From Macrolepiota albuminosa (lineage: Eukaryota; Basidiomycota; Agaricomycetes; Agaricales; Agaricaceae), in NCBI GenBank assembly GCA_027475525.1, contig JAMWFC010000058.1, positions 186,001 through 250,000 of the forward strand: 64,000 nt of DNA, in the 5' to 3' direction. Position 1 is the first letter of the stretch. The number at the start of each line of letters is the position of its first letter. Below the pieces are notes generated by a model, which saw only the letters and a list, made by a program, of their open reading frames with translations, was not told where the DNA came from and searched no databases. This document shows, piece by piece, positions 1,897 through 64,000 of this stretch. A program made the position numbers and the translations under genes.

Positions 1897-2186
1897 ATTG
1901 TTTTTTTTTTTTTTTTTTTTTTTTTTTTGGAGTAGCGTTTGATGTTTAGACCTCATCATTGTCTTTTTTTTGTTTTTTTTTTTGTTTTTTTTTTGTTTTT
2001 TTTTGTTTTTTTTTTGTTTTTTTTTTGTTTTTTTTTTTGTTTTTTTTTTGTTTTTCTTTGTTTTTTTTTTGTTTTTTTTTGTTTTTTTTTTGTTTTTTTT
2101 TTTGTTTTTTTTTTTGGAGTAGCGTTTGGTTTGGTGTTAGACCTTGATATTGTCTTTTTTTGTTTTTTTTTGGAGTGGCGTTTGGT
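1897..2186 (-). repeat. Poly-T arrays ending in GGAGTAGCGTTT: stacked LINE/SINE tails
   Basis: Three times (about 1,929, 2,115 and 2,170) a T run, or a T run punctuated by single Gs, is followed by GGAGT(A/G)GCGTTTG. Read on the minus strand this is AAACGCTACTCC plus poly(A), the same 3' terminus as the two LINEs ending at 9,096 and 51,925. They are best read as 3' tails of that LINE family or its SINE partner, severely 5'-truncated. Long Phe- or Lys-rich frames here are low-complexity artefacts. Confidence 0.6.
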
Positions 2187-21067: not shown

Positions 21068-24000
21068 CTATATTTTTGCATAGATTACAATATGTTGCTG
21101 TCTACCATTAAAAATCTCCAAATTAATGCAGTTGTTTTCCTTAACAATACTACCATTGTAAGCAGCTCCATCGTAGCTCCAGACAGAGTTATTATCAAAG
21201 AGACGAGCTGTAAAATGATTATAACCTTGGTAGATAATAGCTCGCACACTATATTGCTGTAAACCTGTCTGAGTTGGCAAGCATACAATAGGAATTATTG
21301 TAGTAGCGAATCCATCTATATAATCTAAATCAAGTCGAATTATTAAAGGAGCTGAGGCATAAAGTATTTTTTCACTTGGAATAGCAGAACATATGTGTGA
21401 ATGATTAGCTAGTCCATTTTTCATAATTGTTGCAGCTTCTATGGAAGCGTGCCTTTTACCTGCTGTAATAAAGGCATTTAACCATTGCTGAGTGGTTGCC
21501 TCAGTGCCTCCTTGAATTCCATAATTAGACCATACGGTAGGACTTGTACAGTGACCTATGTGATGCAAGTCAATAGTTGCTTCTAAAAGAAATTGGCAGG
21601 AAGGGCATGATATATGATAAATCATTTTTTGAACTATATTAGGAGCGAAAAAAATTAAGTCAACAATATCTGTAGCGCTTATTAAAGTAGGTCCAATTAA
21701 TGGAAACTTTATTGGATTTTTATAATAAAGATATTTGCGAAATTCATTGCGGATATCATCAATATTATAGCTTAAACTAATATGTTTTGCAAATAAATCA
21801 CTTAGAATGTTGCAAGTTTCATTAGAGCAGCTCCAAATATTTTGATCTTCATTATTCATTTGGAGATAAGTGCAATAAAAAGACATGAGTGTAGAATCAT
21901 AGGCACATGACCAATTTATACTATCCCATGAGCATCCTTTCGAAATAACATGCCATATAGAATTAGTACTTTCATCAAAATCTAACTTTAATTTTTTGTG
22001 CAAGGTAAAATCAGGGCATGAATTACGTGATGCAGATCTCTTTTTGCTTTTATTATTATTGTCTGCATCTACTTTTCTTTCGCACTGATCTTGAGTATTT
22101 TGAATATTATCAGAATATTGTTGAGAATAAGTAGATAATTTAATATTAATATTTGAGTATTTGCTTAAATGTTTATCCTCACCTTCAGGATCAGGTACAA
22201 CTCTAATAAAACCCTTCTTAAATCCATGTCTAATAAGTGTATTGTGCTCCATAATTTCATGCCTTTGTGTCTCAATAATTAAGTCAGATGGCAACTTTCG
22301 ATTGAGATCTTTTAAAGTGACTTTTTGAACTATAGCTAGACCTTCGCGAGTAGTAGCTCTAGATGCTGTTACATAGGCAGCGAAACCTCCAAGATGTAAC
22401 CAACCTAAAATATGCGGAAGACTTGTTCCTTGTGCAGCATGTCCTGTAATAGCAAAAGCAGGTTGAAAAGGCAATTGATAGCGCATGATTGATATTTTTT
22501 GCTTTTCATTATTTTTATCTAATTGTACTAAATGTTGAAATTTCCAGGATAGAGGTTCAATTGGAAAATACTGATTAGGTAGATTTGAAAGAGATACTTT
22601 GCTTCTTGGAAATTCAATAATCGCACCAGTACAATAAGTATAACCGGATGAACAAGTTTCAATGTCATATTTCTTCAATATTCCATGAGCACCATTCGTA
22701 ATACCTAATTCAGTAGATAGATTTCGATTGCGCAGAACAACAGGCATTCCTATATATAAAGGAAGAAAACCAGGTAAAGCGCCTTCACTAGCAAACTTAG
22801 AAACATTCAGTTTTAAAAGTTCAGATCTAGCAGGTTCTGATATTGTTTTTTTTTTAACTGTGTCATTCGCAGCACAAATATCAATGTTACCTTGAACAAC
22901 GGATTTTGCTTTTTGAAAATTTATAGCCTGACGAAGATCGTTAGTTTGCACTATTGCAGTTGAATATTGTCTATTATTACAACTCATATTTAATCCATCT
23001 GGATTTTCAAAAGATTTAATCACTCGACTGTTGAATAACTCAACATCTTCCTCTGTGCATTTTCTCTTTCGCAACCGTAAAACAGCTGCAGCATATTCAG
23101 GATCTTTTTTCATGCGCTGTTGCTCTTCCAAGTTTATTACTTCAGTGACCGATTTCCATACTAACCGACCAAGACGAGTCGATAATTGCTGAGAAGACAT
23201 ATTCGTAGAATTTGTTACAGGTTTATACAAAGGAGTTCCTCCAACAGGTGGATATTGATAAAAATCACCTGAAAAAATGACCAAAATTCCACCAAACGGT
23301 TCATTATTACCTTTTACTATTCGTAAAGAGCAATCTACATCTGATAATAAATGACAGCTAAGCAGAGATACTTCATCAATAAGAAGCATTATAACATTTT
23401 TAAATTCTTCAAAAAGATTACTTTTTTCAGCAACGGTCATTATAACAGAATAATCTTCTTTAGAATCACCAGGTATTCGATTACCTTTTCCTTTATTTTT
23501 TTTCTGAACTTTGATAGATAGACCTTTATGGATAGTTAATCCATCAATAAGTGCAGCTGCAGTACCGCTTGGTGCTAAAAAGCGCAATCTTTGTTTGCAT
23601 TGATAAACTTCCATAACTCTTTGTACGGCTTTAACAACATGAGTCTTTCCAGTACCACCAGGTCCTGAAAGATGAAGGCGCAAATAAGGTTGATAATTTG
23701 GTGATAAAACATTATTTATGCCGGCTGCTTCATCATCGATATATTTGAAAAAAGCTTTAGAAATAATTTTAAACGCAATTGATTGTTTTTCATTTAAAGT
23801 TTCTTCTGAAATGATGCGCTCGATCAGATTGTTACGGCTTTCAAAGTGTAAATTATTAATGTTATTTAAACTTTTTGTTTGAGGTGTAGGTGCATTTGAT
23901 GATATATTAGCAGAAGATAAATATTTTATATTAGGTAAAGTAGAAACTAATTCGGTTTCAGATGCATTGTTGATAATTGCTGTCTGATTTAAAGGATCCA

Positions 24001-25405
24001 GAATGTTCCTTCGTTGAGATTTTAAAGATTCTTCTTGTAGTTTGACTTCTCTTTTCCAAATCTTTAAATTACTAATGTTTACGGCAGGTAATAATACAGA
24101 AGTGTCTATTTTTTTATTAACTTCTGCATCGACTAAGAACCATTCACTTGCTTGAAGTCTGAGAAGTTCTTGATTTAATTGAAAATCTTTTTGAACTACT
24201 TGACCTGAGTTTTCTGGAATAAATAAAGTATCATTTGAAGAAGCTGCTAGTTCTGTGAATACTTTTGATTCTTTCAAAGCTTGTTCTTTTTTTTGAAGTC
24301 TCTCAGCATCTCTTTCATCCTCACATTCATAAATAGCATCCCAATTTTTCATAATATTTCTAGACATTTCAGTAAAATTATACATACTGAATACATCATC
24401 AGGATTTTCATGTGAAAGAAGTAAAGGTTCAACATCACTAAAAGGTTTAAAATGAGCAAGCATAAAAATACTATAATCAGAATGAGTAGATCGAGGAATA
24501 CTTGTTCCAATTAAATAAGGTATAAGTAGCTTAGAACCATCTCCACGCTCAAAATTAGTATGCTCTACTAAATCATGAGTATCACATAAAGGATGTGGAC
24601 TTTTCAGTCTCCAGCGTTTATACGCACCTAATCGTATAGTATTAGTACCTTTATATTTTGAAGTACTTATAAGCTCTCTTCGAAAACACTGAACAAAAGT
24701 ATAAAAGCAGATATTAGACAAGTCTGAATCACGATAAATATAATCATCTATCTGAGTTGCTTTTAAAAGATTTCCATTAATATCTACACTAATTTTTAAT
24801 GATATAGGTTCAATATCGTTTTCTTCATCACTACAATCTTCATTTTTTTCATTTGTATGTTTCATAGCATTGATAGAAGTTTTAACATAATAAAGTAAAA
24901 GATTTGATAACATTGGTGTTGTTTTATGAGAAGAAAAACTATCACCTCGACCCCGAATATACCAAGCTGCTTGTTGAGCATGTATTTGTTGTTGCTTAGT
25001 TAGTTGAGATAAACATTTATGAAGAAGCAATTTGGATTTAGCTTTAGAACTTGAAGAATCTATAGTATCTTTCATGTTAAGAACTGCTCGAGATAGAAGA
25101 GACAACATTTGATAAGTTTTTAAATCTAACTTTGTAATATAGTCGGTAATATAAAACATCGCTGCTTTAGCTGCTTTTCCGGATAATATACATTTTAAAT
25201 CATGATTATGGCGACAATATACAAGAATAATTGGATTAAAATAATTCACAGTAGGATCTTGACAAAGTAAATAAATAGAATTTGTATTTGGATCAAATTT
25301 AGATTCAGGAACAAAATCATGTGGAAATCGAAAGCGACACTTATTATCATTTCCAAATTTGTGGCAAACAGCTCTACAATTATGACGTTGAAGAGCTTCC
25401 CGCAT
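21068..25405 (-). CDS. Helitron RepHel, C-terminal part: Y2 tyrosines, PIF1-type helicase, peptidase-like domain
   Basis: This is the downstream half of a rolling-circle (Helitron) transposase. The paired catalytic tyrosines are Tyr85 and Tyr89 in FYITDYITK. A PIF1-type superfamily 1B helicase follows: Walker A GPGGTGKTHVV near residue 580, the Walker B-like LLIDEVSLL near 680, and late motifs ending in GHAAQGTS and YVTASRATT. After a charged linker, residues from about 1,155 hold WSCAYDSTLM (candidate nucleophile Cys) and, near 1,397, GYNHFTARL then WSYDG (candidate His box). That combination resembles USP/OTU-type cysteine peptidases. The first Met is not the true start: the frame continues the upstream Rep half, from which it is separated by a single-base shift in an A6 run. 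Confidence 0.85.
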   Translation of the reverse strand: MREALQRHNCRAVCHKFGNDNKCRFRFPHDFVPESKFDPNTNSIYLLCQDPTVNYFNPIILVYCRHNHDLKCILSGKAAKAAMFYITDYITKLDLKTYQMLSLLSRAVLNMKDTIDSSSSKAKSKLLLHKCLSQLTKQQQIHAQQAAWYIRGRGDSFSSHKTTPMLSNLLLYYVKTSINAMKHTNEKNEDCSDEENDIEPISLKISVDINGNLLKATQIDDYIYRDSDLSNICFYTFVQCFRRELISTSKYKGTNTIRLGAYKRWRLKSPHPLCDTHDLVEHTNFERGDGSKLLIPYLIGTSIPRSTHSDYSIFMLAHFKPFSDVEPLLLSHENPDDVFSMYNFTEMSRNIMKNWDAIYECEDERDAERLQKKEQALKESKVFTELAASSNDTLFIPENSGQVVQKDFQLNQELLRLQASEWFLVDAEVNKKIDTSVLLPAVNISNLKIWKREVKLQEESLKSQRRNILDPLNQTAIINNASETELVSTLPNIKYLSSANISSNAPTPQTKSLNNINNLHFESRNNLIERIISEETLNEKQSIAFKIISKAFFKYIDDEAAGINNVLSPNYQPYLRLHLSGPGGTGKTHVVKAVQRVMEVYQCKQRLRFLAPSGTAAALIDGLTIHKGLSIKVQKKNKGKGNRIPGDSKEDYSVIMTVAEKSNLFEEFKNVIMLLIDEVSLLSCHLLSDVDCSLRIVKGNNEPFGGILVIFSGDFYQYPPVGGTPLYKPVTNSTNMSSQQLSTRLGRLVWKSVTEVINLEEQQRMKKDPEYAAAVLRLRKRKCTEEDVELFNSRVIKSFENPDGLNMSCNNRQYSTAIVQTNDLRQAINFQKAKSVVQGNIDICAANDTVKKKTISEPARSELLKLNVSKFASEGALPGFLPLYIGMPVVLRNRNLSTELGITNGAHGILKKYDIETCSSGYTYCTGAIIEFPRSKVSLSNLPNQYFPIEPLSWKFQHLVQLDKNNEKQKISIMRYQLPFQPAFAITGHAAQGTSLPHILGWLHLGGFAAYVTASRATTREGLAIVQKVTLKDLNRKLPSDLIIETQRHEIMEHNTLIRHGFKKGFIRVVPDPEGEDKHLSKYSNINIKLSTYSQQYSDNIQNTQDQCERKVDADNNNKSKKRSASRNSCPDFTLHKKLKLDFDESTNSIWHVISKGCSWDSINWSCAYDSTLMSFYCTYLQMNNEDQNIWSCSNETCNILSDLFAKHISLSYNIDDIRNEFRKYLYYKNPIKFPLIGPTLISATDIVDLIFFAPNIVQKMIYHISCPSCQFLLEATIDLHHIGHCTSPTVWSNYGIQGGTEATTQQWLNAFITAGKRHASIEAATIMKNGLANHSHICSAIPSEKILYASAPLIIRLDLDYIDGFATTIIPIVCLPTQTGLQQYSVRAIIYQGYNHFTARLFDNNSVWSYDGAAYNGSIVKENNCINLEIFNGRQQHIVIYAKI

Positions 25406-28400
25406 TTTTTAATTTCTACATCAAGCAAATCTTTCCAATCTTGAATATCTTCATCAGATCTCGAAGATGGTACATGAGGAGGTCTTTCGATTCGTGGTTC
25501 ATATTTTGGATCGATTTCTATTTCAATATTAGGAAGATGATGATGAATAATATTTTCAAAAAATTGAAATAGCTTTTGAGCATAACCAGCTTCGGTTTTA
25601 AGTTTTATATGAATATCAGAAGGATTAGGTGCACCAATAAGCCATATAAGAAAGTGTGCATGCCATTGTCCTCTTTCGGTCAATTCATTAGATCCATAAA
25701 ATGCAGCAAGATGTCCTAAAATGCCACCTTCTGAAAAACTTTTGCCTTTTTCAAAATCCCACCCAAAAAGATATTGAAACATACATTGAATAGAAAAATA
25801 AAAAAAGTCAGCTGCAGCAACAGGATCTTTTGCTAATCTCAAAGCTCTTGTAGTACTATCAACAATAAGTGGAAACTGGTCATCAAGATTAATAGTAGTA
25901 TCACCATACATAAGTTGAAAAATAGGGCTATGTATTGCACTCGGATTCGCGGTAAAATAAAGTATAGGCATTCCAAAATATCCTGAGTAATTTCGAATTT
26001 CATTCCGACATCTTATTTTTGATGCTTGAGAACCAGGCACATGAGAAGCAATAGTATTAACTTCATCAAGAAGAGTAAATACTTGTTTTTCGTCATCTGA
26101 AAGTGATTGATAATTATAATCTTTTTCTAATCGATTTGCTACAGAAAGAAGAGTTTCAGAAGAGATTGAAGTCAATTTTTCTGCAATAGCTTTAAACCGT
26201 GAGCTTTTTACATGTAAACTTGTATAAAAATGCGCAGTTCTGCGCTGCATTATATTTAAAGCTACAAATATAAAAGAATAATGATAACGAAAAGCATGAT
26301 CTGCTAGATCTATAAGATAATTTACATGAAGTTGCATACTAAGTGGTGTTGGTCGACTAGGATCATCAAAACCACCACATCCATAAGGAAATAAGGTTGG
26401 AAACATACCAGGAAATAAAACCGGGTTATTATATTCATTAATTTTATTATTTCCTTTATATATTATAAGATCAGGTTGTTCATTATTTAATTTATTATTA
26501 TTTGATACAAGAGTTCGCAAAGCTGATGCAGTCAAAGAAGAACCTTGAATTTTCACACTTTCAGGATCTGAAACCCCCATATGTTCTAAAAGTACAGTAG
26601 CTTCATCATCTGTGTTAGATTTGCATATTTCTAATGCAGGATGATCTGATAAACCAGCTGTCTCTTCTTCAAAAGTTTTTTCAACAGAAAGTTCTGTATC
26701 ATGTAGAAGTCTATCCTCCAATCCTGGAAGAACAGCATCTTTTGGATATAAATCTACAATTCTTTTATCTAATTCAATGTTCTGATACAAGGGATTTTTA
26801 GCAACATTCTTTAACCAAATAAGGAAGTCCCAAATTTTTTGTTTGCGAACTCGAAACACATTTCTCATTGCTTTATCTTTATACTGACCCGGTCCAATAA
26901 ATACAACAGATAATAATCCATTGATATAATCAGGAGTTCGAGGAAGAACTGAAGCAGTTGAAACAATATTCATGTCATGTGCACAAGTATTACCATGAAA
27001 AACTCGAGGTTGCTTAGGATCTGATGATTGATAAAGACGAGTAACATATGCACTACTGCAATAAACAGCACATGTCATTTCTTCAATCCACGTTAGATCT
27101 GCAAATTCTTGTGGTAAATTTCCACGATATAACTTGTTTACTAAAGAAAATTTTGGAATCTGCTTCTTTCGCAATTCAGAATAACAGTCATTGCAAATTT
27201 GAATTAAATTTGGATTTGATTTAATACCATGAACATCTAACATCAACCCAGCATAATTTTGAGGCAAATGTATAAAATCATTATTAAAACGAGTATCGGA
27301 AAATTTTAGAACAGATAAATCAAGATTATAAAGATCACTACTGGAATCAATTGATATGGAATGAATGATTGACTTATCTCGTTGACGAGCACATACAGCA
27401 CAAATAAGAGGAATAATCCAATTCGTTGCTTCACGATATTTATGTGCACAGTTCATAATAAGATTATCAGAAGGAACAGTTGGCCATGAAGAAATAATAT
27501 CACTTTGATGTTTTGCATTTATACTGACTGTAATTTGTTTTTGAAGATTTCGCTCTTTTTTTTTTTCATTTTGCCTTCGAACTTTTATGCTGGTTGTCAA
27601 ATGTACAAATATATTAGTACTATATTCAATTTCTAACAGCAAACACACTGACTTGAAAAAATCAGAAGGAAATATAGTATAGGTTGGTAATAAGCAAGTA
27701 ATGTATTGATGAATATCTGATATGTTGCAAGACATTAATGCTTTACACCGAGAGCGAAAGCTTTCAATAATAGCTTTTACCATTTCACTATGTAATTTTG
27801 CAAAAGAAGGACGGCGAGAAGGATGAATACGTTTTAAAATAGAACGCAATGATTTTTTTGAAAATGTTTGTGAAGGTAACAAGCTCACATTATTATCGTT
27901 CTCAGTATTTTCCAACAACTGATGCAATACAGGCTTATGTATTTGACAATTCTTGTAATGTAACAAAGGATTTTCAGGGATTAGTAAAGCGTGCAAAACT
28001 TTCTCACCAAATAACTGAAGAGCAATGTTATAAAAAAGTTTAGGCAGCATTTCAGAAGAAGAATCTGGAAAAAAAGAACATAACTGCTTATTTATTTGAT
28101 TTGATGTAAGAGTAAGACATTTCTGCCTATATTCCAAGAAGTGAGACAAAATAGTGCTAGCAAGAGCTTCCTTATTCCGACATTTAGGCATAATTAACTC
28201 CGAATTAAATGCAGATTTTAAGTCTTTACAGGAAAGTTCATTCAAAGATGCAAGATAATGATCTTGAGTATAATACAACCATGTGGGGTGGTTTTTATAG
28301 TGCAGATAGGTGCGAAATGAAGAAAAATATTTGCGAGGATGAAAAAAAGAAGAACAAATATCGTAACAATCCAAAGTAATAAATGTTCTCTCTCCAAGAT

Positions 28401-28647
28401 TGCATACAGTAAATATTCCTGTTGTGTAAGTGACAAGGTAGGAAGATGTGGAATTTTCATCTTTAAAAACATTAGTCAACCATTCAATTACAGAATTTGA
28501 AGAATCAAAACTAGAAGAATTTGGAAAGTATAAAGTATTATAATATTTTGGATATTCCTCAGGTAAAAACTCAACATGCGTCGGAGGGCAATCTTTTTCA
28601 TCAAGTACTCTAGGTGCATGACATGGCAATTTTATTAAGGGAAACAT
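25406..28647 (-). CDS. Helitron RepHel, N-terminal part with HUH nuclease
   Basis: This is the upstream half of the same Helitron protein. A zinc-finger-like section (CAVCARQ..ICNDCY) is followed by the domain typical of fungal Helitrons (NKLYRGNLPQEF, VFIGPGQYKDK) and then Rep. GGILGHLAAFYG and ERGQWHAHFLIW give the HUH metal-binding motif (His-Ala-His) near 25,660. The frame formally opens at 28,710, but its first 21 codons lie in 20-bp tandem repeats, so Met at 28,647 (MFPLIKLPCHAP) is the better start. The frame goes out of register at an AAAAAA run around 25,405, after VEIKK; one extra A, or a -1 slip, joins it to the downstream half. Helitrons nick and transfer one DNA strand. Confidence 0.8.
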
Positions 28648-28667
28648 GCTGTAATGATGTGAGAGTA

Positions 28668-28770
28668 CTAATTTTAATGGTAGTACACAAAATTTAATGG
28701 TAGTGCACAAAATTCAGTGGTAGTACACAAAATTCAGTGGTAGTACACAAAATTCGGTGGGAGTTCACGT
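28668..28770. repeat. Iteron-like 20-bp direct repeats upstream of the Helitron gene
   Basis: Five units of AAAATTCAGTGGTAGTACAC with few changes at an exact 20-bp period; a degenerate relative (TTTCAGTGGGATTTCAC) follows. The array abuts the probable start codon of the Rep/helicase. Replication initiators of the HUH type often bind direct repeats near their nick site, so a Rep-binding role is inferred. Confidence 0.75.
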
Positions 28771-30341: not shown

Positions 30342-31292
30342 AGATCACGCGTATAAAGTTGAAAGTTCAAAATTCGATATTCCGACCTAATGACGTGTGA
30401 TGTTGTCTTTTGACCAATCTCTCTGTACATCATATTAGTTCAGTGGAATATCTATAAATTGATATTCTATATTCTGCACAAGCGGCGGGTTCGACTCCCC
30501 CATAGTGCATGATGGTATTCCTCTGACCATTCTTGTTTTCAAACCATTACGTAAGTGCCCGTCCCCACGAACGATTACATAATGATTTTATTATTATTAT
30601 TATTGTATATAGTCATCATCATTATTTGTAATACATACGTCTCTTTCTTTCCTCCCTGTCTTTTCTTAAAATTTTCGATTTCAAACTATCTTACCGCTAG
30701 ATTGCTCATAGGTCATGTTACTGCACAACTCTGGAAATGCTATATCCTCGTCGCTTCTTCTGCTATAACAAACTGGTACCGTCAGTCTATGTTGTCGTGT
30801 ACTCACTCAACGGACACCTACTTGGAGGCAAACACTATCAATCACTGTGGTTCAACTTGGTACTTATTACTGCTCGTTGCGAGCTAGAATGCTTCGATAG
30901 GTAAAATTCTGACAATTAGTACAATGTAAGTACGACTTCAGCCTGTTCAATCTATGGATCTATGCGGCTTGAAACGAATCTTTTCTGCGAATGCGACCAT
31001 GGAAAAACCGTTGTATTACTCGAACAACTATGCAATGAAGCCTTATATATACCAACCTGCTAAAACAACCAAGATGTTCAGTGACATTAAGTATGACTTT
31101 AGTGAACACTCACTCACTTATACGAAAATAACCGTACGCGGTCGATATTTCCTCTCAACATCACTTCATATACGTTTACTTTTTTTTGGTGTATAACGTT
31201 GAACAACGTCTTCACACAACATCCATGTCCGAACTTCCACACGTTGATGATATACAGTGTTGGCGCCCGCGCACGTCTCCCTACTCCATCGG
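30342..31292. repeat. Right arm of the long inverted repeat
   Basis: Reverse complement of 1-955. It has single copies of blocks that are tandem in the left arm, and an insertion at about 30,420-30,545 absent from the left arm. Its outer limit cannot be set because the left arm leaves the window at the base pairing with 31,292. Confidence 0.85.
30420..30545 (+). ncRNA. tRNA-derived insertion with pol III A and B boxes
   Basis: The segment is present only in the right repeat arm. It contains TAGTTCAGTGG at 30,436-30,446 (A box) and GGTTCGACTCC at 30,488-30,498 (B box). A D-arm and a T-arm with one mismatch can be drawn, but the acceptor stem pairs at only about four of seven positions. It is best seen as a tRNA pseudogene or SINE head, not a working tRNA. 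Confidence 0.4.
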
Positions 31293-34996: not shown

Positions 34997-36831
34997 ATGT
35001 CGCGCACCCCGACGCATTCCCCGACGCCCCCGCCCACCAACGAAGTCGCGCCTTTGGTCGTGTGGGAGGCCCGGGACGCCCGGTATCGGCGCCACCTGGA
35101 TCAGGAGCGTGTCGCGGCGCTCTTTCAACAACGTAGGTGCATCCGCGTGTTTTTCGCTTGGCCCGATCAACCTCCCTTTTTTAGAACAACAAAACGCACC
35201 TGCCCCGGAGGCGGGGCCTAGTCGCCTGCCGGAGGCTGCCCCGGAGGCACCGGTCAGTCCCCCGCCGTCGGTTCCCGCGGGAGCCCCTCAGGCGGGTCCC
35301 AGTCGTTCTGCGCCTACTGTCGCGCGGATGACTGTCCGCCCCCCCCGCCCTCCTCCCTCACCTCGTCCTCGCTTAACCGCCCCTCGTTTTCGCCGGTCGG
35401 GGATGGCCCCCGGTACCGTATCGATTGTTCCGGAGGGTCTGCGCATCCCGTGGGCGGCCGTGTCGCAAGCCGCGTTCGAGCAGGCCCTTGAGAGGCCCCG
35501 GGGCTTGCCCACCCATGCGTGGTGCGTTAGCAACGGGCCGGTAAGTGACCTCGTACCTCGTGTTCACCGCTAATGTCGACTTAGTGCGTACACTGCGCTC
35601 GCCGGGTGGTGCCGTGTCTATTCGAGGCCCCCAGCCCGTCGTCCCGGAGGGATTCGTCGGTGTGCGAGGCGTGTCGCGAAAACCACGAGCGCTGCTCCGT
35701 TTCCGCTTTATGGAGGGCGCATTGCATGGCGGGGTCTTGGGTGGCCGTTGGGGGGTTTGACGCGCCGGATGGGGGTGGAAGAGAGGGACTGGGTGGTCGA
35801 GCCGCCGGTAGGAGCGTCGGAGGGTTCCGGGGGAGAGGGGGCCCCTGCGAGGGGGTCTCGGGTCAGGGGGGCGGCGGGGGTGGGGAGTCGGGGCCGGCCC
35901 GTGGTCCTGGTCACGCGCCGGGTGACCCGGGCCGGGGCGAGCGGAGAGGGTCGCGCCGATAAGGGAAAGCGGCGGGCGTTGCCCAGCCCCTCTCCCGGGC
36001 CCTCCAAGCGGCCGCGACTCTCCCGGGAGGTGCCCTCTCCGACCCCGCCCCCTCGTTTGTCCCCGGCCGTGTTTTCCCCCTTGTCGGGGCGGCCGTTGGC
36101 TGTCGACGTGGCGGCGTTGCAGGAGCGCGCGGACCGGGCCGAGCGGGAGAGAGGGGAGATGGCCGACCGCCATCAGGTCACGGCCGAGCACCTACGAGGA
36201 GTTCGTACGACCCTGGCCCGGAGCGAGGAGGCCGTGAGGCAAGAGGCGGCGGCTCGGCGGTGGGTGGAGGAGGACCGGGGGGCGGTAGTTCGGGAGTTGC
36301 AGGAGGTTAGGGCCGCACGGGGGGCGTTGGAGGCCGAGCAGGATGCGCTGCGGGCCCGGCTGGAGCAGGGGGTGGGTCATCCGGAGCCGGCGCCCCAGAG
36401 TCTGCAAAACGTGGTCGTTGCCCGGATGGCGGCCTTGAGTGAGTGGTGTCAGTCCCCTTCCCGAGTTCCGCACTGATTCTCCAGGTTGGGCCCGGGAGCA
36501 CCGCCTGCTCCTGGACGGGGCGGCTGCGGCGTTGGCCTCGCTACAGGAGGGCCAGCGGGCCGAACTGTCGACCCCCGGGGTGGAGCGCGGGCTGGACCTG
36601 TTGGGTAGGTTGATCTCGGCGCACCGGCGGAGGAACGTCCCGGCGCCGGGGACCTGGTTCGAGAGGGTCCTGGACGAGGGCGAGCCGCTCCCGTCCTGGG
36701 GTCAGTTGATGGAGGAGGCGTCGCGAGGGTACGTTCCGGGGGAGCGAGAGACGGAGGAGCCCCGGGGTTGGCCGAGATCCAGTGGGGGCGAGGGTGGGGA
36801 GGGTGGGGGTAGCCCGGGGCCCCAGCTCTAG
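34997..36831 (+). CDS. G1 antisense gene: Cys-cluster, coiled-coil protein (about 565 codons; 2-nt frame break)
   Basis: It lies between pol and the 3' LTR on the strand opposite gag-pol. Exons are 34,997-35,132; 35,185-35,540; 35,585-36,438; 36,485-36,831, with three GT-AG introns of 52, 44 and 46 bp at the same places as in G2. The product has a Pro-rich N-terminus, a Cys cluster (CVHCARR..PC..VCEACR..HERC), a basic NLS-like KGKRR...SKRPRLSR, a long Glu/Arg/Ala-rich coiled coil (about 36,100-36,410) and a C-terminal block (WAREHRLLLDG...TWFERVLDEGEPLPSW). A 2-nt deletion relative to G2 near 35,730 breaks the frame; allowing for it, the spliced length is divisible by three. Function is unknown. 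The Cys cluster suggests DNA or protein binding. Confidence 0.75.
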
Positions 36832-52445: not shown

Positions 52446-55400
52446 TCAGATCGTATCTGTAGAGTCCAATTTCTGCACTGTACTTCCAATGATCAAGGCG
52501 GGACTCTGGAGACTTAAAGGTGCCCCAGTCTTATTTTTCCACAAATTGCTTGCTAGGCCCCATACTATTCTTTGCCCTGGGCTCGAGCATTTGGTTAGGA
52601 TATGATCCATTGAGTCGATGTTGTTATCATGTTTACATATAGCACGGTCCTTGAGTTCCTGTTTCATTGAAGGCCTGTCCCAATGTAGGCCTACTTTATA
52701 CATGTCGTGCGTCAGTTTCCACAGGAACAATGTTACTTTCTTAGAGAAGTCTTTGTTTCTGATTCCCTTCCAGATGGACCGTTCTTCTGGTAGCCTCTCA
52801 TCTATGGACTTAATGTAGAGCTGGATGTCTTTCAGCATCTTCCGAGTTCTAGGTCTTTCCAGGCACTCTGCCAGGCTTTTTATAGTTCTATAAGCCAGGG
52901 CCTGTGTCATGCTGGAGAGGCATGCTCCAGTCAGGTGGAGTTCTTCTGGGATGGGGGGGAGTGTCATTATTCTGTCTCTGGTTAGGGCGCTGGTGGCAAG
53001 GGACTTTGCCAAGATCTCTTGGTGAGACATCGGCTCCTCAGTTAAGTCGTAGAAGGCAATTTTCGCTCTATGCATCCTGAGGCGCCCAAATAGTATATGC
53101 AGGAGTCCTGCGTCCTGTATGCCATAGAAACTCTCATCTTCTATTTTTGTCATATCCTTCGTCAGTAGATCAAGAATTGCGCTGGATCTTAGGTTAATCA
53201 TCAGAGGATTGTTTATGCCCCCTTGATAGAGGCCAGAATTATCGCTATCAGAGAGGCAGAGACCTTGGTGTTGCGGTTTATATTCAGCCATTTTGCACCC
53301 CCACTGATGTCCTCTCTCCCTGAAAAAACTACTCCAGCTCCTACTAGGTTGAACACATATACCCCATCTAGGGTATTTCCCTCTATTCCAGAGCGGTACT
53401 TTCCATGAAATGAGACACTCAGCTACTCGTTCTGATTGGCTGCTTGGATGCGTGGGTAAAGCTTATTGCACTTTGCTCCGGACGTGAAAATTCTAAAAGC
53501 ATTGCCTACATACCCCTTGGTGGTTAGGTTTGAATTGAAATCTTTTGGCACCTCTTCTAAGGGGGTCCCCCCTCCTTCAGCGTCTGGTTGGTCTTCATTT
53601 GGTCTTTTCCTGGGGTCCCACTTTTCAGGAAGGGTATCAAGCATTGCGCCAGCTCTTCTCATGCATAGGTTTGGGTGTGAGCACCCCGATTCCTCATCGA
53701 TTTTCATGCAGTCTCCACACTCACACTCTGATGTGTCCTGGTGCATGGGATCGTTTATAGCTTCCGCTAGACAGACCGCATCCTTAACAAGATGAATCGA
53801 GTGCTTAGTTTTCAGGCAATTCGCGACTCTACCAGAGTTCATCCTTCTGATTTTGTTGCTTGCTTCGATGTGGTACCACATCGGCATGTTCATGCTTATG
53901 TTGTTTTCTACTTCTATATTCTCTAGCCTTACATTGAAGTCTTTTGCAGTCTTGAACAAGCTTGTTATATCCAGGCATATCTCGCCCTTGCTCAAGGATT
54001 TAGATTTCCACGATTGGAGGAAGGGACTTAATTTTATCTGCATGTCGACCTTTCCTTCGGACAAGGGTATATTTATCGCCATAAGAGCATCCGCTACTAG
54101 CGCCCATAGCAGTCTAAAAGGGCCAAAATTAAGGTATGACTTCAGCCACATGATGTCGATGGCCTTGTTTCTTGTCCTGATGTCAATTAAGGCATGACCT
54201 CCTTCTTCAATCCTTTTGAAGAGAGTTCGTTCATTTATTAAGGGATTCTTTCCCTCCCACATGAATGTGTTGACTCATTTTGTGAGCAGCTTTTCTACAT
54301 GTTTTGGCATACCCTGTACTTGCGTGAGGTACTGTGACATACCTGCCACAACCATCTGCAAGATTAACTTTCTCCCCTCCATTGTAGAGTGGCTTTTCTC
54401 CCACATGGACAGTGCCTTGTCAATCTTTTCAATCGTGCTGGACCATGGTGCTCCTATATCAATTTCATTGCCATACCAGGCACCTAATATACGGATCACA
54501 TCTCCGTCTTCTGTTATGTGAATACTATCTGAGATACGATTGCTGTCCGGCCTTAGTCTTCTATTGCTTATAAGGTCTGCTCTGAAAGTTTTTACACCTA
54601 GTGGTATGATCTCAGTTTTAGAGGTGTTGAACTTTGCCCTAGATGCAATGCACCAGTCGTTCAGAATTTCTTCTAGTGATTCCAGGTCGCTTTCTTCAGA
54701 AAGAAATGTAGTTGTGTCGTCTGCGAAAAGAGTAGCTATTAATTTTTCACTGTGACCTGGGATGTTAAAGCCCTTCAAATTCGACTCGCATAGGAACGCG
54801 GCTAGTGGCTTGATTGCCAGGTCGAACAATAGACATGAGAGGGGATCCTCTTGCCTTACGCCCCTTGTTACCTGCCACGGGGTACTGAAAAAACCATTGA
54901 TCATGATCTTGGTCTCCGCTCCCCAATATAGGGACTTAATTGTGTTAATGAGGCTGAGTGGGATGCCAAATGTTTCTAAGGTTCTCCATAGATATTCATG
55001 GTCTATCTTATCGTAGGCCTTCTCTTGATTGAGTGCCACGATCATGCCATTCTGCTCAGTCGCCTCAGCATAATGAATCATCATTCGAATCAGTTTGGTT
55101 TGGTCACTGATACTCTTACCAGGGATGAAGCCTGCTTGGTTTGGGTGAACCAGAACCGTTATGACCTCAGCAAACCTTTCAGCAAGAATTTTTGTGAACA
55201 GTTTGTAATCCGTGTTCAGGCACGTAATCGGTCTATAGTTGGCTATATCCATCCTGTCGTTTTTTTTGTACAAAGGGCACATCTACCCTTCTGCAAAAGG
55301 GGATTTTTCTATTAGCCCAAATTCTTGAATATCAATATATACTCTATTTAGGAGTTCAAGCACGTCAAAGGTTGGTCTCTGAGAGCCACCACTTGTGTTC

Positions 55401-57083: not shown

Positions 57084-57810
57084 TGTCAGGTTCCGCTGAA
57101 TCGGGGGCTTTCCGGGAAAGCGACGCCCTTACGATGCGGACTTGATCTACGGATACTCGGGGGTCTGGAACTCCGGGGCTAGGACTCCGGGGTTCAAGAC
57201 GAGGACAGGGTAATCCCGGGAAAGGGGACTAGAGTCCGGGGGTTTTGGATGAAAGTGGCTGGGAGTTAGAGGGGGTCGAGTCGTGAACCGGAGGTTCTAA
57301 GACGAGACCAAGTTAGTAACTTAAGAGTCGCGAAGTGCGTACCAAACTTATAGCACGCGAATACCAAGGCGTGCCAGTCGAAGCGTACCAAACGAGGCGT
57401 ACCAGTCAAACAAGAGGGCACGCAATAACCAATGTAATATCAAGACTACCGAATACAACAAGGGACTACGCTATAAGTACTACGGGATCGGGTCTCGGGG
57501 TTCCGGGATGTCTGGGATGGGTTCCGGGGGTTATTGAGTAGCGGCAGGGGCTGTATACCGGGATCGCGCGTGTGGGGCGCGCGATCAATTGGCGCGGATG
57601 GAGCCGTGATGCGTGATGCGTGATGGCCGGCACGAGTCGCGTGATCTGATCGTTGATCGGGGCTGGTGATGGCTGATGGCGGTCCTTGATGCGCGTGATG
57701 GCGGTGTCGGCGGTCGTGATGGCGGGGCGTGTCCTGGGGGTCGGAGGGAGGGTCCCGGAGGGTGTTCCGGGGGTGTCCCGGGGTGGGCCCGGAGGGGAGG
57801 GGTCGTGACA
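57084..57810 (-). repeat. G2 3' LTR (727 bp)
   Basis: Similar throughout to the G1 LTRs. It conserves the self-priming sequence (TAATATCAAGACT at 57,435-57,447 on the plus strand) and the TATA-like CTATAAG about 25 bases away. The target duplication cannot be checked because the other end is out of view. Confidence 0.9.
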
Positions 57811-57937
57811 TCACCCCCCCCTCAGCGCCGAGACCCTCCGAGGCGCGCGTAGCCGGTGGTTCGGACCGGGGGTCAACCGTGGGATCCGGCGCCTGACCTG
57901 CCACGTATCGAAAAAAAATTTCCCATCAAACTCAACC

Positions 57938-59840
57938 ATGTCGCGCACCCCGACGCATTCCCCGACGCCCCCGCCCACCAACGAAGTCGCGCCTTTGGTC
58001 ATATGGGAGGCCCGGGACGCCCGGTATCGGCTCCGCCTGGATCAGGAGCGTGTCGCGGCGCTATTTCAGCAACGTAGGTGCATTCGCGTGTGTTTTGCTT
58101 GGCCTGATCAACCTCCCTTTTCTAGAACAACAAAACGCACCTGTCCCGGAGGCGGGACCCAGTCGCCTGCCGGAGGCTGCCCCGGAGGCACCGGCCAGTT
58201 CCCCGCCGTCGGTTCCCGCGGTAGCCCCTCAGGCGGGTCCTAGTCGCCCCGCGCCCACTGTCGCGCGGATGACCGTCCGACCCCCCCGCCCTCCCCCTTC
58301 GCCTCGCCCCCGCTTGGTCGCCCCGCGTTTTCGTCGATCGGGGATGGCCCCCGGCACCGTGTCGGTGGTCCCGGAGGATCTTCGTATCCCGTGGGCCGCC
58401 GTGTCGCAGTCGGTGTTCGAGCAGGCCCTTGAGAGGCCCCGGGGGTTGCCTACCCATGCGTGGTGCGTGAGTAACGGGCCGGTGAGTGACTTTGTACCTT
58501 CGTGGCCGCCGCTAACGTCGACCCAGTGTGTGCACTGCGCTCGCCGGATGGTGCCGTGCCATTTCGAGGCCCCCAGCCCGTCGTCCCGGAGAGACTCGTC
58601 GGTGTGCGAGGCGTGTCGCGACAACCACGAGCGCTGCTCCGTTTCCGCTTTGTGGAGGGCGCGTTGCATGGCGCGGGAACAGGGGTGGCCGCTGGGGGGT
58701 TTGACACGCCGTGCTCCGTTTCCGCTTTGTGGAGGGCGCGTTGCATGGCGCGGGAACAGGGGTGGCCGCTGGGGGGTTTGACACGCCGATGGGGGTGGAG
58801 GAGAGGGACTGGGTGGTCGAGCCGCCGGTGGGAGCGCCGGAGGGTTCCGGGGGAGGCGCCGCCCCGACGAGGGGGTCTCGGGTCAGGGGGGCGGCGGGGG
58901 TGGGGAGTCGGGGCCGGCCCGTGGTCCTGATCACGCGCCGGGCAACCCGGGCCGGGGCGAGTCGTGCCGACAAGGGGAAGCGGCGGGCGTCGCCCAGTCC
59001 TTCCCCCGGCCCTTCCAAGCGGCCACGGCTCTCCCGGGAGTCCCCTTCCCCGGCCCCTTCCCTGCGCCTGTCTCCGGCGGTCTTCTCCCCCTTGTCGGGG
59101 CGGCCGCTGGGCGTGGACGTGAGGGCGCTCCAGGAGCGCGTGGATCGGGCCGAGCGGGAGAGGCAGGAGCTGGTTGACCGCCATCAGGTCACAGCTGAAC
59201 ACCTGCAGGGGGTTCGGACGTCCCTGGCCCGGAGCGAGGAGGCGGTGAGGCAGGAGGCGGCAGCTAGGCGGTGGATGGAGGAGGACCGGGGGGCGGCAGC
59301 TCGGGAGCTGCAGGAGGCGCGGGTTGCACGAGGGGCGTTGGAGGCCGAGCGGGACGCGCTACGGACCCGGCTGGAGCAAGGGACGGGTCATCCGGAGCCG
59401 GCCCCCCAGAGCCTGCAGGACGTGGTCGTCGCCCGGATGGCGGCTTTGAGTGAGTGGTTGGAGCCCCTCTACTGAGTTCCCGTGCTGATTTCCTAGGTTG
59501 GGCCCGGGAGCACCGCCTGCTCCTGGACGGGGCGGCTGCGGCGCTGGCTTCTCTGCAGGAGGGTCAGCGGCCCGAGTTGGCAACCCCCGGGGTGGAGCGC
59601 GGGTTGGACCTGCTGGGGAGGCTGGTCTCGGCGCACCGGCGGAGGAACGTCCCAGCGCCGGGCACCTGGTTCGAGAGGATTCTGGACGAAGGCGAGCCCC
59701 TTCCGTCCTGGGACCAGCTGCTGGAGGAGGCGTCGCGGGAGTACGTTCCGGGGGAGCGGGAGGGAGAGGAGCCTCGGGGTTGGCCGTCGCGGTCCAGCGG
59801 GGGAGAGGGAGGGGAGGGGGGCCCGGAGACCCCTCACTAG
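57938..59840 (+). CDS. G2 antisense gene: Cys-cluster, coiled-coil protein (about 560 aa)
   Basis: Exons are 57,938-58,073; 58,126-58,481; 58,527-59,449; 59,497-59,840. The three GT-AG introns (52, 45 and 47 bp) are at the same positions as in G1 and their sequences have diverged more than the exons. Domains run in the order described for G1: Pro-rich start, Cys cluster from 58,527, KGKRR / SKRPRLSR basic patch, coiled coil (about 59,110-59,400), and a C-terminal block from WAREHRLLLDG to the acidic Gly-rich tail. The frame is broken only by the 77-bp duplication at 58,635. With one copy and the adjacent missing G allowed for, the spliced length becomes 1,683 nt, a multiple of three with no stop. 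The gene therefore looks intact and under selection. Function is unknown. Confidence 0.8.
58635..58788. repeat. 77-bp direct duplication in the G2 antisense gene
   Basis: 58,635-58,711 equals 58,712-58,788. G1 has one copy. One G is missing after the second copy relative to G1, the same signature as in G1 pol. Confidence 0.95.
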
Positions 59841-60104: not shown

Positions 60105-63100
60105 CTACTGCCGTCTGTGAGTCCTGCGCCCGGGGAGGTCGTTCCCCGGGTGCCGTTGTTGAAAGTTCCGGAGTTTGTCGAGGGCGCCTTCGAGGTTTCG
60201 GCGCGGTTCCCAAGTGTCGTCTTCCGGGCCGTACCCCTTCCACCGTACGAGGAAGTGGGGTCGTCCACGAATGTTCCGGGAGTCGAGGATGTCTTCGACT
60301 TCGTAGTGGTACTCGTCCTCGACCTCGACCGGGGGAGGGGGCTCGGGGCGTCGTCCAGGGAAGGGATCCGGGGGGTGTCGTTCCAGGAGGCGGACGTGGA
60401 ATACCGGGTGCAGACCTTTTAGTCCCGGGGGGAGCTCGATCTTGTAGGCGTGGGATGAGACCTTCTTCAATATTTTGAACGGGCCGAGACGCTTGTGATC
60501 GAGTTTTGGGGAGGGCCGGCGGGTGCGGAGGTGTCGTCGATCTAACCATACCTTTGTCCCGGGGGCCCAGTCGGGGGTGTCTTCCCGCTTCCGGTCGGCG
60601 TGTTTCACGTAGGCCCGGTTCGCGGTGTCGATCTCCTCCCGGAGAAACTCGTGAAGGGATTGGAGATCCCGGGCGACCTCGTGGGCGGCGTGCGACGGGA
60701 TGTCCCGGAGCGAGAGCGTCAGTCGTGGGTGGTATCCCTTGTTGGCAAAGAAGGGTGATACCCCGGTGGCAGAGTGCGGCGTGTTGTTGTAGGTGAACTC
60801 GGCCAGGGGGAGCTCGGCGCGCCAGTCGTCCTGTAAGTAGTTGACGTACAGTCGAAGGTACTGCTCGAGAGACTGGTTGACCCTTTCGGTTTGGCCGTCG
60901 GTTTCGGGGTGGTAGGCGGTAGAGAGGTTAGTCTTTACTTCAAGTGCCTTACACAGGGAAGTCCAGAACTTGGACACGAAGAGAGGGCCACGGTCGGAGA
61001 CGATGTCGTCCGGGAGTCCATGTTTGGCGAAGACGTGCTCGAGGAACAGCCGGGCGAAGTCCGGGGCGGTATCCGTGGTGTGGCAGGGTAGGAAGATGCC
61101 CTGTTTGGTCAGCCTGCACACAACGACGAGAATAGCATCGAACCCTTCAGATTCCGGGAGCTCGACGATGTGGTCCAGAGATATTGAGGACCAGGGGCGT
61201 CGTCCGACCGGCAGGGGTTTCAGGAGTCCGTACGGTCGGTGTCGGGGGACCTTGGCCCGGAGGCAGGGCTCGCATGATCGAATGTAACGGGTCACGTCCT
61301 TCTTCAACCCTGGCCAAAAGTAAGTCCGGGAGATGAGCTGGAGGGTCTTACGTATTCCAGGATGTCCCCGGAGCTTGTGGTCGTGGTGTTGACGGAGGAC
61401 GTCGTAGCGAAGTCGGGCGTGATCCGGGACGTAGATGCGGCCGTCCCGGAGGAGGAGTTTCTCGTCGGGGGACAAGGAGAAGGCGGGGTCCCGGTCGGTT
61501 CCGTCGGAAGGGTTTCGGGGGTCGTGATCGGTGAAGTACTTGTCCCGGGGAGCGCGGCGGATCTGGTTCAGGGTTCCTTCGTCGTTTAAGATCAGTACGG
61601 CATTCAGGTGTTCGGGAGGGATCACCACGCGATGATTGAACGCATTGCGCTCCGCCTCGAATGACTTCTTGGGGTAGACGTCCGGTCGACGGGTGAGGGC
61701 ATCGGGCTTGGCGCCAAGGCGTCCCGGGCGGTACTGGATCGTGAAGTCGTATTCCGAGAGGATCTCGGACCATCGGGCCTGTCGTCGACTAAGCTGTTTG
61801 GTCGTGGTGAAGTACTGCAGGTTGTTGTGATCCGAGTAGACCTGAATCCGGTGTCGGGCTCCCTCGAGGTAGGCTCGCCACTGCTTGAAGGCTTCGACGA
61901 TGGCGAGGAGCTCCTTGTCGTAGATGTCGTAGTTGAGCTCGGCGTCGATCATGGACCGGGTGTAGAAAGCGACTGGCCGGGGCTCCCCACCGTCAGGCTC
62001 CATCTGTGAGAGGATCCCGGCGATGGCGTAGTCGGACGCGTCACATTCCAGGATGATCGGGAGGGCCGGATCGTAGTGCCGGAGTACCGGGGCGACTGTG
62101 AAAGCCTCCTTGAGCAAGTTAAAGACGCTTTGGCACTTACTGTCCCAGTTCCAGGCGATGTCCTTGCGCGTGAGCCGGTTGAGGGGTTTCGTAATCCCGG
62201 AGTAGTTGTCTATAAACCTCCGGTAGAAGTTAGCGAAACCCAGGAAGGACTGTACTTCCTTGACGTTCCGGGGCTGCGGCCAGTTGACGATGGCCTCGAC
62301 CTTGTGGGGGTCCATGCGAACGCCGTTCGGGGATACTATGACGCCAAGATACTCAACCTCTTCCGTATGGAAGGAGCACTTCTCGGGCTTGGCGTGGAGG
62401 TTGTGCTCCCGGAGGCGTTCGAGGACCTGCCGGACATGCTTCTGGTGATCCTCCGGTGAGTCGGAATAAATGAGGATGTCGTCCAGGTAGACGATCACGA
62501 AGACGTCGCTCATGTCGTGGAAGATGTCGTTCATGAAGTATTGGAACGTGGCGGGGGAGTTAGTCATTCCGAAAGGCATCACAAGATACTCAAACAGACC
62601 ATACCGCGTGCGGAACGCGGTTTTCCACTCGTGTCCCGGGGCGATGCGGACGTTGTTGTAACCGGAGCGGAGGTCAATTTTCGTGTAGACCTTGGCACTG
62701 CGAAGTCGATCGACCAGATCGCCGATGAGCGGGAGCGGGTAGCGGTTCTTCTTGGTGATCTTGTTGAGTCCCCGGTAGTCGACGCAGAGTCGGAGCGAGC
62801 CGTCCTTCTTCTTGGCGAATAGAACCGGGGCTCCGGCGGAGGAGGCGGAGGGTCGGATGAATCCCTTACCGAGCATTTCGTCGAGGTAGTCCTTGAGGGC
62901 CCGAAGCTCGACTTCCGACATGTTGTACACCTTGCCGAAAGGGGGGGCGACTCCTTCCTCGAGATCGATCGTGTGGTCGTAGGGTCGATGAGGGGGAATC
63001 TCCTTGGCGTCTCCTTCGGAGAATACGTCAGCGAACTCATGGTACTCCGGGGGAACTACTTCTCGGAGGATCTGCTCCTCGGTTTTCTTCTCCGGGGGAA

Positions 63101-64000
63101 CAGCGTCTCCTCGTAGGTGCTCTTCCGGGAGAGATGGCGAGGTGTGTAGCTGGAACGTGGGAGTTCCATCCTTCATGAGGCGGGCGAAGGGGGCGGCTCC
63201 AATGATCCTGATGTCGAGTGTGTCCGGGTCGATCGGGGTCGCGGGAGTGTCGGCTGGAGCGGGTTTGACCCGTGTCTGGGATCGGCCCGGGTAGTTCGGC
63301 CCTTTGTACTTGTTCCGAGGAATGTTTGGGGGCCGATCTGGGACATTTCGGGCTCGGCCGGGAGTGGGCGAGGACGTGGGTGGTGTAGATGGAGAGGGCG
63401 CGGCGGTCGTCCCGGGGGTGTCGGGTATCGGGTCGTTTCCGAGGGCCCGGAGGTGCACGGCGGTCGTGGGGTGGTCTTCGGGTCCCGGGAAGGTCATGGT
63501 GAGCGTCCTCCAATCGATGTCGGGGTTTGTGTCGCGCAGCCAGGGTAGTCCCAGCACCATCGGGGTCGATTCGTGAAGTCGCGTGACCAGGAAGTCGGAG
63601 GTGAACTCGTAGCCGTTGTCCAGGGTCACGCGTCCTGAATGAGACCTCTTGATGGGGCCGGAGGCGGAGGGAGTGCCGTCGAGGCGCTGCAGGCGAAGGG
63701 GCTGGTCGAGGGGGTCGTGAGGGAGGTCGAGGGTGTCGCTGATGAAAACCCCGGTGGCTCCGCTGTCGATGAGGGCCGATATCGGCCCGGGGGTGCCGTC
63801 CAGCCTGGCATTGATGACGAAGGACCGGGACGAGCGAGACTGGAGTCCCGGGGGTGGTGGGGGTTCGTCCGGGCAGTCCTTCGGGGTTGGTCTTGGGGGG
63901 TGGGGGATGTCGAAGGGAAGTTGTTGGTCGTCGGGCGTCGGGTCCCGGGTCAGGCGAAGGGTGAGGTGTCGCCAATCGATGCGGGGGTTGGTGTCCCGGA
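60105..64000 (-). CDS. pol: G2 Pol polyprotein (5' end beyond window)
   Basis: Open from the window edge to 60,105. The first Met is at 63,629, but the frame continues upstream. It starts within the end of a first retropepsin-like domain ([14 protein letters not shown]) and goes on into a second ([27 protein letters not shown]). Counted from 63,629: RT with [11 protein letters not shown] near residue 380, RNase H with [11 protein letters not shown] near 530, integrase zinc finger ([11 protein letters not shown]...CEPCLRAK, about 750-790), DDE core ([21 protein letters not shown], about 820-920) and a chromodomain ([16 protein letters not shown], about 1,120). All catalytic residues I can check are present. 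Chromodomains steer such elements to marked chromatin. This copy is potentially competent. Confidence 0.92.

Follow-up and report, generated by a model that had tools for sequence, protein, structure and literature searches.

Copies of a Ty3/gypsy retrotransposon in this basidiomycete genome carry a gene on the strand opposite to gag and pol, and our comparison of the copies shows, at the level of sequence, that it is built as a spliced coding gene, that purifying selection acts on it in several lineages of the element and that it forms a deeply diverged cassette of old alleles within a recently shared backbone. We consider it reasonably probable (about 60%) that the product of this spliced antisense accessory gene is a nuclear protein associated with DNA or chromatin, which would regulate the element in trans. 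That LTR retrotransposons can carry antisense accessory genes is long established, and the function of these genes is unsettled.

The window is the whole 64 kb stretch of DNA that was analysed and it holds two copies of the element, G1 and G2. In G2 the host element is on the minus strand and the antisense gene, between pol and the 3' LTR, is on the plus strand. The earlier note had placed such a gene in both copies and divided it, at matching positions, into four exons and three introns, and position, strand and structure were all borne out by an alignment of 40 copies together with ten more distant ones. The features are given below, with splice-site counts taken over those copies that have the intron in question among 48 aligned copies (L039 and L046, in which the 5' part is absent, are excluded).

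57084..57810, minus strand: 3' LTR of G2, with ends placed by eye; identity to the 5' LTR of the same element 99.7% (717 aligned bases, L059)
57811..57937, plus strand: leader of G2 from LTR to ATG, 85-100% identical to 13 other copies compared
57938..58073, plus strand: exon 1 of G2, 136 nt, beginning with the start codon (ATG) at 57938; start and splice sites kept in the aligned copies
58074..58125, plus strand: intron 1 of G2, 52 nt, GTAGGT...TAG; GT-AG in 45 of 47 copies, CTRAY branch-like site in only 23 of 47
58126..58481, plus strand: exon 2 of G2, 356 nt
58482..58526, plus strand: intron 2 of G2, 45 nt, GTGAGT...CTAAC...CAG; GT-AG in 46 of 47 copies, CTRAY branch-like site in 47 of 47
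58527..59449, plus strand: exon 3 of G2, with the six-cysteine cluster, AT-hook-like and NLS-like motifs and a predicted helical segment; it also holds the next feature
58635..58788, plus strand: exact 77-bp tandem duplication in exon 3 of G2 (58635-58711 and 58712-58788), which breaks the frame
59450..59496, plus strand: intron 3 of G2, 47 nt, GTGAGT...CTGAT...TAG; GT-AG in 46 of 46 copies, CTRAY branch-like site in 46 of 46
59497..59840, plus strand: exon 4 of G2, 344 nt including the stop TAG; conserved C-terminal domain, predicted helical with low confidence
60105..63629, minus strand: pol of G2 with RT, RNase H, integrase and chromodomain, its stop at 60105, convergent with the antisense gene
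34997..36831, plus strand: antisense gene of G1, exons 34997-35132, 35185-35540, 35585-36438 and 36485-36831 (derived from L027 exon lengths together with the offsets of the repeats)

The leader of G2 stays similar to those of the 13 copies even where the antisense gene is deeply diverged, and its first bases (the 57811 side) read by eye as a polypurine tract on the minus strand. As regards the host element, RVT_1, RT_RNaseH, Integrase_H2C2 and Chromo in the pol of G2 are above the Pfam cut-off and the integrase core rve is below it (27.4 against 32.6 bits). The order of RT, RNase H, integrase and then chromodomain in a single pol ORF is that of a Ty3/gypsy chromovirus. The gag lies on the minus strand, with a Retrotrans_gag match in G1 just under the cut-off, and, with 7968 relatives scored for the RT region, the one closest to it in the top 120 is from Termitomyces sp. 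T112 (82% over 401 aa), which points to an agaric fungus as the probable host.

The genome assembly searched comprises 100 Mb in 129 contigs. A DNA search, in which the best 40 of 609 candidates were scored, gave 91 pieces, which combine into 40 gene copies, and a further ten, more distant, were hand-picked from protein-level matches, so that the sample of 50 consists of copies retrieved by the antisense gene itself. The first 40 were aligned (29 representatives) and the splice sites set from the alignment. All ten distant copies have the same four exons and nine of them have a pol end on the opposite strand in a tail-to-tail layout, no pol match being found in the stretch of L054 examined. 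Each intron is present in 46 or 47 of the 48 aligned copies, in line with the expectation that most copies would have them. The cysteine region of the gene has at least 239 matches in the genome. An uninterrupted spliced ORF of 524-564 aa is found in 18 of the 50 copies, 13 from the first set and five from the distant set, the latter including L051 where the frame is continuous and the stop is five codons ahead of the aligned stop. Exon lengths among these 18 unbroken copies differ by multiples of three only (exon 3 measures 766-871 nt), and their introns, of 49-53, 44-48 and 44-48 nt, occur in two or three phases. By eye, L029, L033 and L035 differ from the unbroken copies at many sites by C-to-T or G-to-A in the alignment, and some of these changes kill splice donors (GT to AT); the pattern resembles that of silenced copies decaying through methylation or a RIP-like process.

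One local break had been allowed for in each window copy, and we could trace both to exon 3, where G2 has the 77-bp tandem duplication and G1 lacks 2 nt relative to L023-L026, its unbroken sisters. We scanned 240,749 bases from the window and 51 loci (L009 and L027 were excluded as repeats of the window) for full-length tandem duplications with a period of 40-199, and all 36 found are exactly 77 bp. They are present in 23 of the 51 loci and in the window at 38930, 39368, 39618, 40642, 55660 and 58635, at many unrelated places and with no more than two additional bases of homology. A length of 77 is a common k-mer size of a short-read assembler. Given the single length, the scant extra homology and the many unrelated sites we treat the G2 break as a probable assembly artefact, and we infer that the duplications are fixed-k-mer contig overlaps that were joined untrimmed; the frame break of G2 and four more 77-bp duplications inside G1 are probably all such artefacts. 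A biological process behind the duplications was considered first and rejected in favour of this origin since all 36 have the same period, and programmed frameshifting at the breaks was rejected since other copies are continuous. Partial repeats with other periods (among them one of 76 in L056, another of 42 in L037, and an array of short period close to window positions 1964-2061) are outside the count as they are not full-length duplications in this range. The fetched element stretches of L013, L032, L053 and L057 contain 100-N gaps, which indicates that this assembly has scaffold gaps inside repeats. The 77-bp duplications are a caution for the reading of frames and copy structure in this genome.

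The expectation that dN/dS across copies would lie far below 1 was confirmed in 66 pairs of 12 representative unbroken copies, in which it ranges from 0.16 to 0.41 with a median of 0.23. Over five pairs the two shifted forward frames gave 0.96-2.34, and two of the reverse frames 0.98-2.32. The remaining reverse frame, in which codon positions are mirrored, gave 0.30-0.52. We considered this last as a coding shadow frame on the minus strand and rejected it, the reverse frames having 2-13 stops in all eight copies tested. An antisense transcript would overlap the genomic RNA and could itself be the product, by way of dsRNA or non-coding regulation and with the ORF incidental, a route that is considered in part of a review of plant elements (PMC7264820). 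As a sole function this appears very improbable because of the selection at the codon level, seen in the low dN/dS, in exon indels that are in frame only and in the phase kept over three introns in the unbroken copies.

The intron distance is 0.36-0.62 of dS in five pairs, and it is 1.6-2.8 times dN in four of these and roughly matches dN in the pair that is closest (3 differences in 117 sites), so that introns change faster than protein-altering sites, bar the closest pair, and slower than silent sites. The earlier note had stated that exons are conserved while introns drift; this stands in so far as exons keep their frame and introns do not keep their phase, but the drift at 0.36-0.62 of dS is weaker than was implied. 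Between the two main gene classes the introns are unalignable. No intronless copy was found among 40 candidates scored at each of the exon 2/3 and exon 3/4 junctions with G2-class queries: the joined exon 2/3 query is matched in two separate parts, each stopping at the predicted junction, and the exon 3/4 query likewise in separate parts that stop within 1-2 nt of it. This fits an account in which the introns persist since the genomic RNA that is reverse-transcribed would be the complementary, gag-pol strand, in which they would be unspliceable, and if copying goes through that RNA a lack of intronless copies is what is expected. The case shows a route by which an RNA-borne element may carry introns.

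The predicted protein begins with a conserved N-terminus and ends in a conserved C-terminal domain; between them come a proline-rich part, the cysteine cluster, the motifs described here and a helix predicted to span about 30 residues. The presence of a Cys cluster, noted earlier, was upheld in the form of six cysteines spaced as CX2CX6CX15CX2CX6C in all 18 unbroken copies, each of the six being kept in at least 27 of 28 distinct exon 3 starts. Motifs which we take to be AT-hook-like (G[RW]PVVL or GRPMVL) and NLS-like (two, including a bipartite NLS-like stretch) are also present in 18 of 18. Pfam matches no gag or pol family in the protein, in agreement with the view that the product is not part of either. 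The function had been guessed to be that of a regulator, a nucleocapsid accessory or a silencing antagonist, and the motifs favour a nuclear regulator; no specific support for a nucleocapsid role was found.

The likeness to a Gal4-type Zn2Cys6 protein lies in the two CX2CX6C halves, the basic NLS-like region and the helical segment downstream, and the differences lie in the 15-residue loop between the halves and the position of the cluster in the middle of the protein. The PROSITE pattern for Zn2Cys6 clusters, taken as CX2CX6CX5-12CX2CX6-8C, matched none of the 18 unbroken copies, and Pfam Zn_clus (PF00172) reached 13.5 bits against a gathering score of 21 in one of two proteins scanned and gave no match in the other. 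Structure models were poor (mean pLDDT 46 and 55, about 60 in the Cys cluster), and searches of the PDB by sequence and by fold with the exon 3 model gave nothing usable, the one match having an E of 9.8. As the pattern does not match, the Pfam score is below threshold and the models are weak we do not file the protein as Zn2Cys6, though it may work like one. CGG triplets, the usual target of Zn2Cys6 proteins, are not enriched in the LTR (z 0.4). No membrane segment was found, the maximum 19-residue hydropathy in the 18 copies being 0.65-1.47 and never above 1.5, and an envelope-like ORF was rejected on this ground and on that of the antisense orientation. Outside this genome a first protein search, which was swamped by word-sharing candidates, scored 7995 with none at E <= 0.001, and a second with the cysteine region gave 61 candidates with none at E <= 1. 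The same protein database includes fungal elements, as the pol query shows with the Termitomyces match; the lack of outside homologues may be partly due to repeat masking of multi-exon genes. Taken together these searches yielded neither a homologue nor a structural match nor an above-threshold Pfam domain that would speak for DNA binding, and this, like the lack of CGG enrichment in the LTR, counts against the reading as a nuclear regulator.

Elements that are near-identical in LTR, gag and pol carry antisense genes with a dS of 0.86-1.04 and unalignable introns. Between G2 and L050 the aligned LTR is 98%, the leader 100% and the pol end 94-96% identical, and the antisense exons are 68-79%, the introns 49-53% and the spacer 62%. 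With gaps excluded and over 71-87% of the LTR, LTR identity to G2 is 98% in L050, 94% in L051, 98% in L053 and 95% in L055, and with gaps included LTR plus leader are at 97, 86, 95 and 88% respectively; the LTRs of L049, L052, L054, L057 and L058 are 84-92% identical to that of G2. On the gag side, part of the LTR included, G2 is 96.8% identical to the L050 element and 98.2% to the L051 element. Against L051, dS is 0.004 in gag and 0.12 in the 3' part of pol, and it is 0.89 in the antisense gene (measured on L017, the sister of G2); in the L050 comparison, where the backbone is less close, the corresponding values are 0.11, 0.20 and 0.98. Pol-end figures for L053, L054 and L057 (35-45% in parts, 81% for L053) reflect a failed alignment, an N run or absent pol and were left unused. 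In steps of 30 bp, identity drops within the first approximately 50 bases past the start codon and recovers about 55 bp past the pol stop; both points are shared by all seven copies tested. In four elements whose two LTRs were compared, the pair is 99.3-100% identical (L050 and L051 over 442 and 334 bp only), which marks the insertions as young. Tree tests were performed with 18 of the 50 copies, hand-chosen to be without 77-bp junctions between LTR and gene and with groups named after the trees had been seen: a grouping by antisense class is rejected by the LTR data (p 4.7e-7, or only 0.041 once L054 is removed); conversely, the LTR grouping is rejected by the gene data at p 8e-7, as is the pair L011+L050 at p 2e-6. 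This points to a history of the antisense segment distinct from that of gag, pol and LTR. Separately, the antisense genes of L045, L048 and L049 look recombinant, exon 1 and intron 1 being G2-like (96-97% in L048 and L049, by eye in L045) and the remainder of the other class.

Such a mosaic could also arise by misassembly, with short contigs from different copies joined in repeats and the 77-bp overlaps left in place, and the exclusive 77-bp period and the 100-N gaps in four fetched loci are what this would produce. We regard it as very unlikely, because L050/L060 and L051/L061 are mosaic without any 77-bp duplication or N run, because the L050-type leader-exon 1 stretch matches 40 places in the genome (at least 238 of 249 bases, 92-100%) and because the trees conflict in copies chosen without such junctions. 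Exchange of the cassette by template switching between co-packaged RNAs would be the simplest account. Persistence of the alleles may mean that they are kept by selection or that the backbone merely spread through old lineages.

Under the reading that we favour, a nuclear trans-regulator, transcription would start in or beside the 3' LTR, with the start codon about 130 bp away behind a leader common to the alleles, the host spliceosome would remove the three introns and the protein would enter the nucleus, dimerise and act on the chromatin or transcription of the element. Such regulation could take either of two forms. The first is an anti-silencing factor of the VANC type that counters host silencing of element DNA, for which the nuclear-type motifs and the VANC precedent (PMC5735166 and PMC10398659, in part) speak. 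The LTR does not co-vary with the allele, as the G2/L050 LTR at 98% and exons at 68-79% illustrate, unlike in sequence-specific VANC-target pairs, and this form is possible but doubtful. The second is self-limitation, where a copy-number control factor would restrain sister copies and a new allele would escape the restraint that its predecessors impose, with Ty1 as the model. A homogenised backbone that carries old alleles is the trace expected of escape from homotypic restriction, and in Ty1 the determinant of copy number control is derived from gag and moved by recombination, according to parts of PMC7055915 and PMC4599808. However, Gag is 98-99% identical in amino acids between G1 and the three other copies compared, so that an allele-specific target in Gag is not evident, and selection is overall purifying and not diversifying; we hold this form to be rather unlikely as well. 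More speculative still, and less likely, is that the cassette determines the allele as an identity or immunity determinant, with old alleles under frequency-dependent selection and one LTR-gag-pol backbone spreading through them by template switching, similar in logic to the immunity cassettes of temperate phages. If true, a new allele would escape restraint or silencing aimed at resident alleles. Allele-specific binding to the element's own LTR as a driver of diversification was rejected as unlikely since LTR and allele do not co-vary.

The gene of HTLV-1 HBZ is spliced and has an antisense promoter in the 3' LTR, and its product has a leucine zipper. In architecture HBZ would be the nearest, sharing an antisense position at the 3' end of its retroelement, splicing (here predicted from splice sites) and a nuclear regulator as product (here a probable one), its nuclear localisation being described in part of PMC11963269; here no bZIP was found, there are four exons and the element is a transposon and not an exogenous virus, and we claim no kinship. 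In lying between pol and the 3' LTR and antisense to gag-pol the gene corresponds to an aORF-3R, as known from maize Grande gene23, rice RIRE2, Retand TRP28 and PvRetro13 (sections of PMC7264820 and PMC11963269) and, in a fungus, from brtn of Botrytis Boty (PMC8365987, in part). These share with it an LTR retrotransposon as host, place and orientation, the lack of a known homologue and a suspected nuclear function, and it differs in its three conserved introns, six-cysteine cluster, basidiomycete chromodomain element and the deep divergence of its alleles within one backbone. The word intron does not occur in the available text of PMC7264820 and PMC11963269, the former, a 2020 review, calling in that text for a search for antisense and spliced transcripts. 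Among the listed titles and abstract openings of the open-licence literature we met no antisense or additional ORF in LTR elements of basidiomycetes, and an earlier description is possible. Canonical Ty1 and Ty1' are alike in that the subfamilies are set apart by a single regulatory segment which recombination has spread, but there the segment is in gag (PMC7055915, in part) and here it is a separate antisense gene with gag nearly constant. What is new here is the antisense gene as a diverged and apparently exchanged cassette in a homogeneous backbone. With a spliced gene under selection, this number of domain matches and natural allele swaps, its function is addressable by allele-exchange comparisons.

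In the window beside G2, at 52446-55282 on the minus strand, there is a reverse-transcriptase ORF (RVT_1 in 54278-55282) with neighbouring ORFs, probably the remains of a non-LTR retrotransposon. Inverted arms about 30 kb apart at 1-702 and 30601-31292 match over 416 nt at 100% and 286 nt at 97%, and represent a palindromic edge of the assembly or, alternatively, a large inverted-repeat unit. Between them lies a Helitron-like helicase with Helitron_like_N, DUF6570 and PIF1 (ORFs 21068-25405 and 25246-28710).
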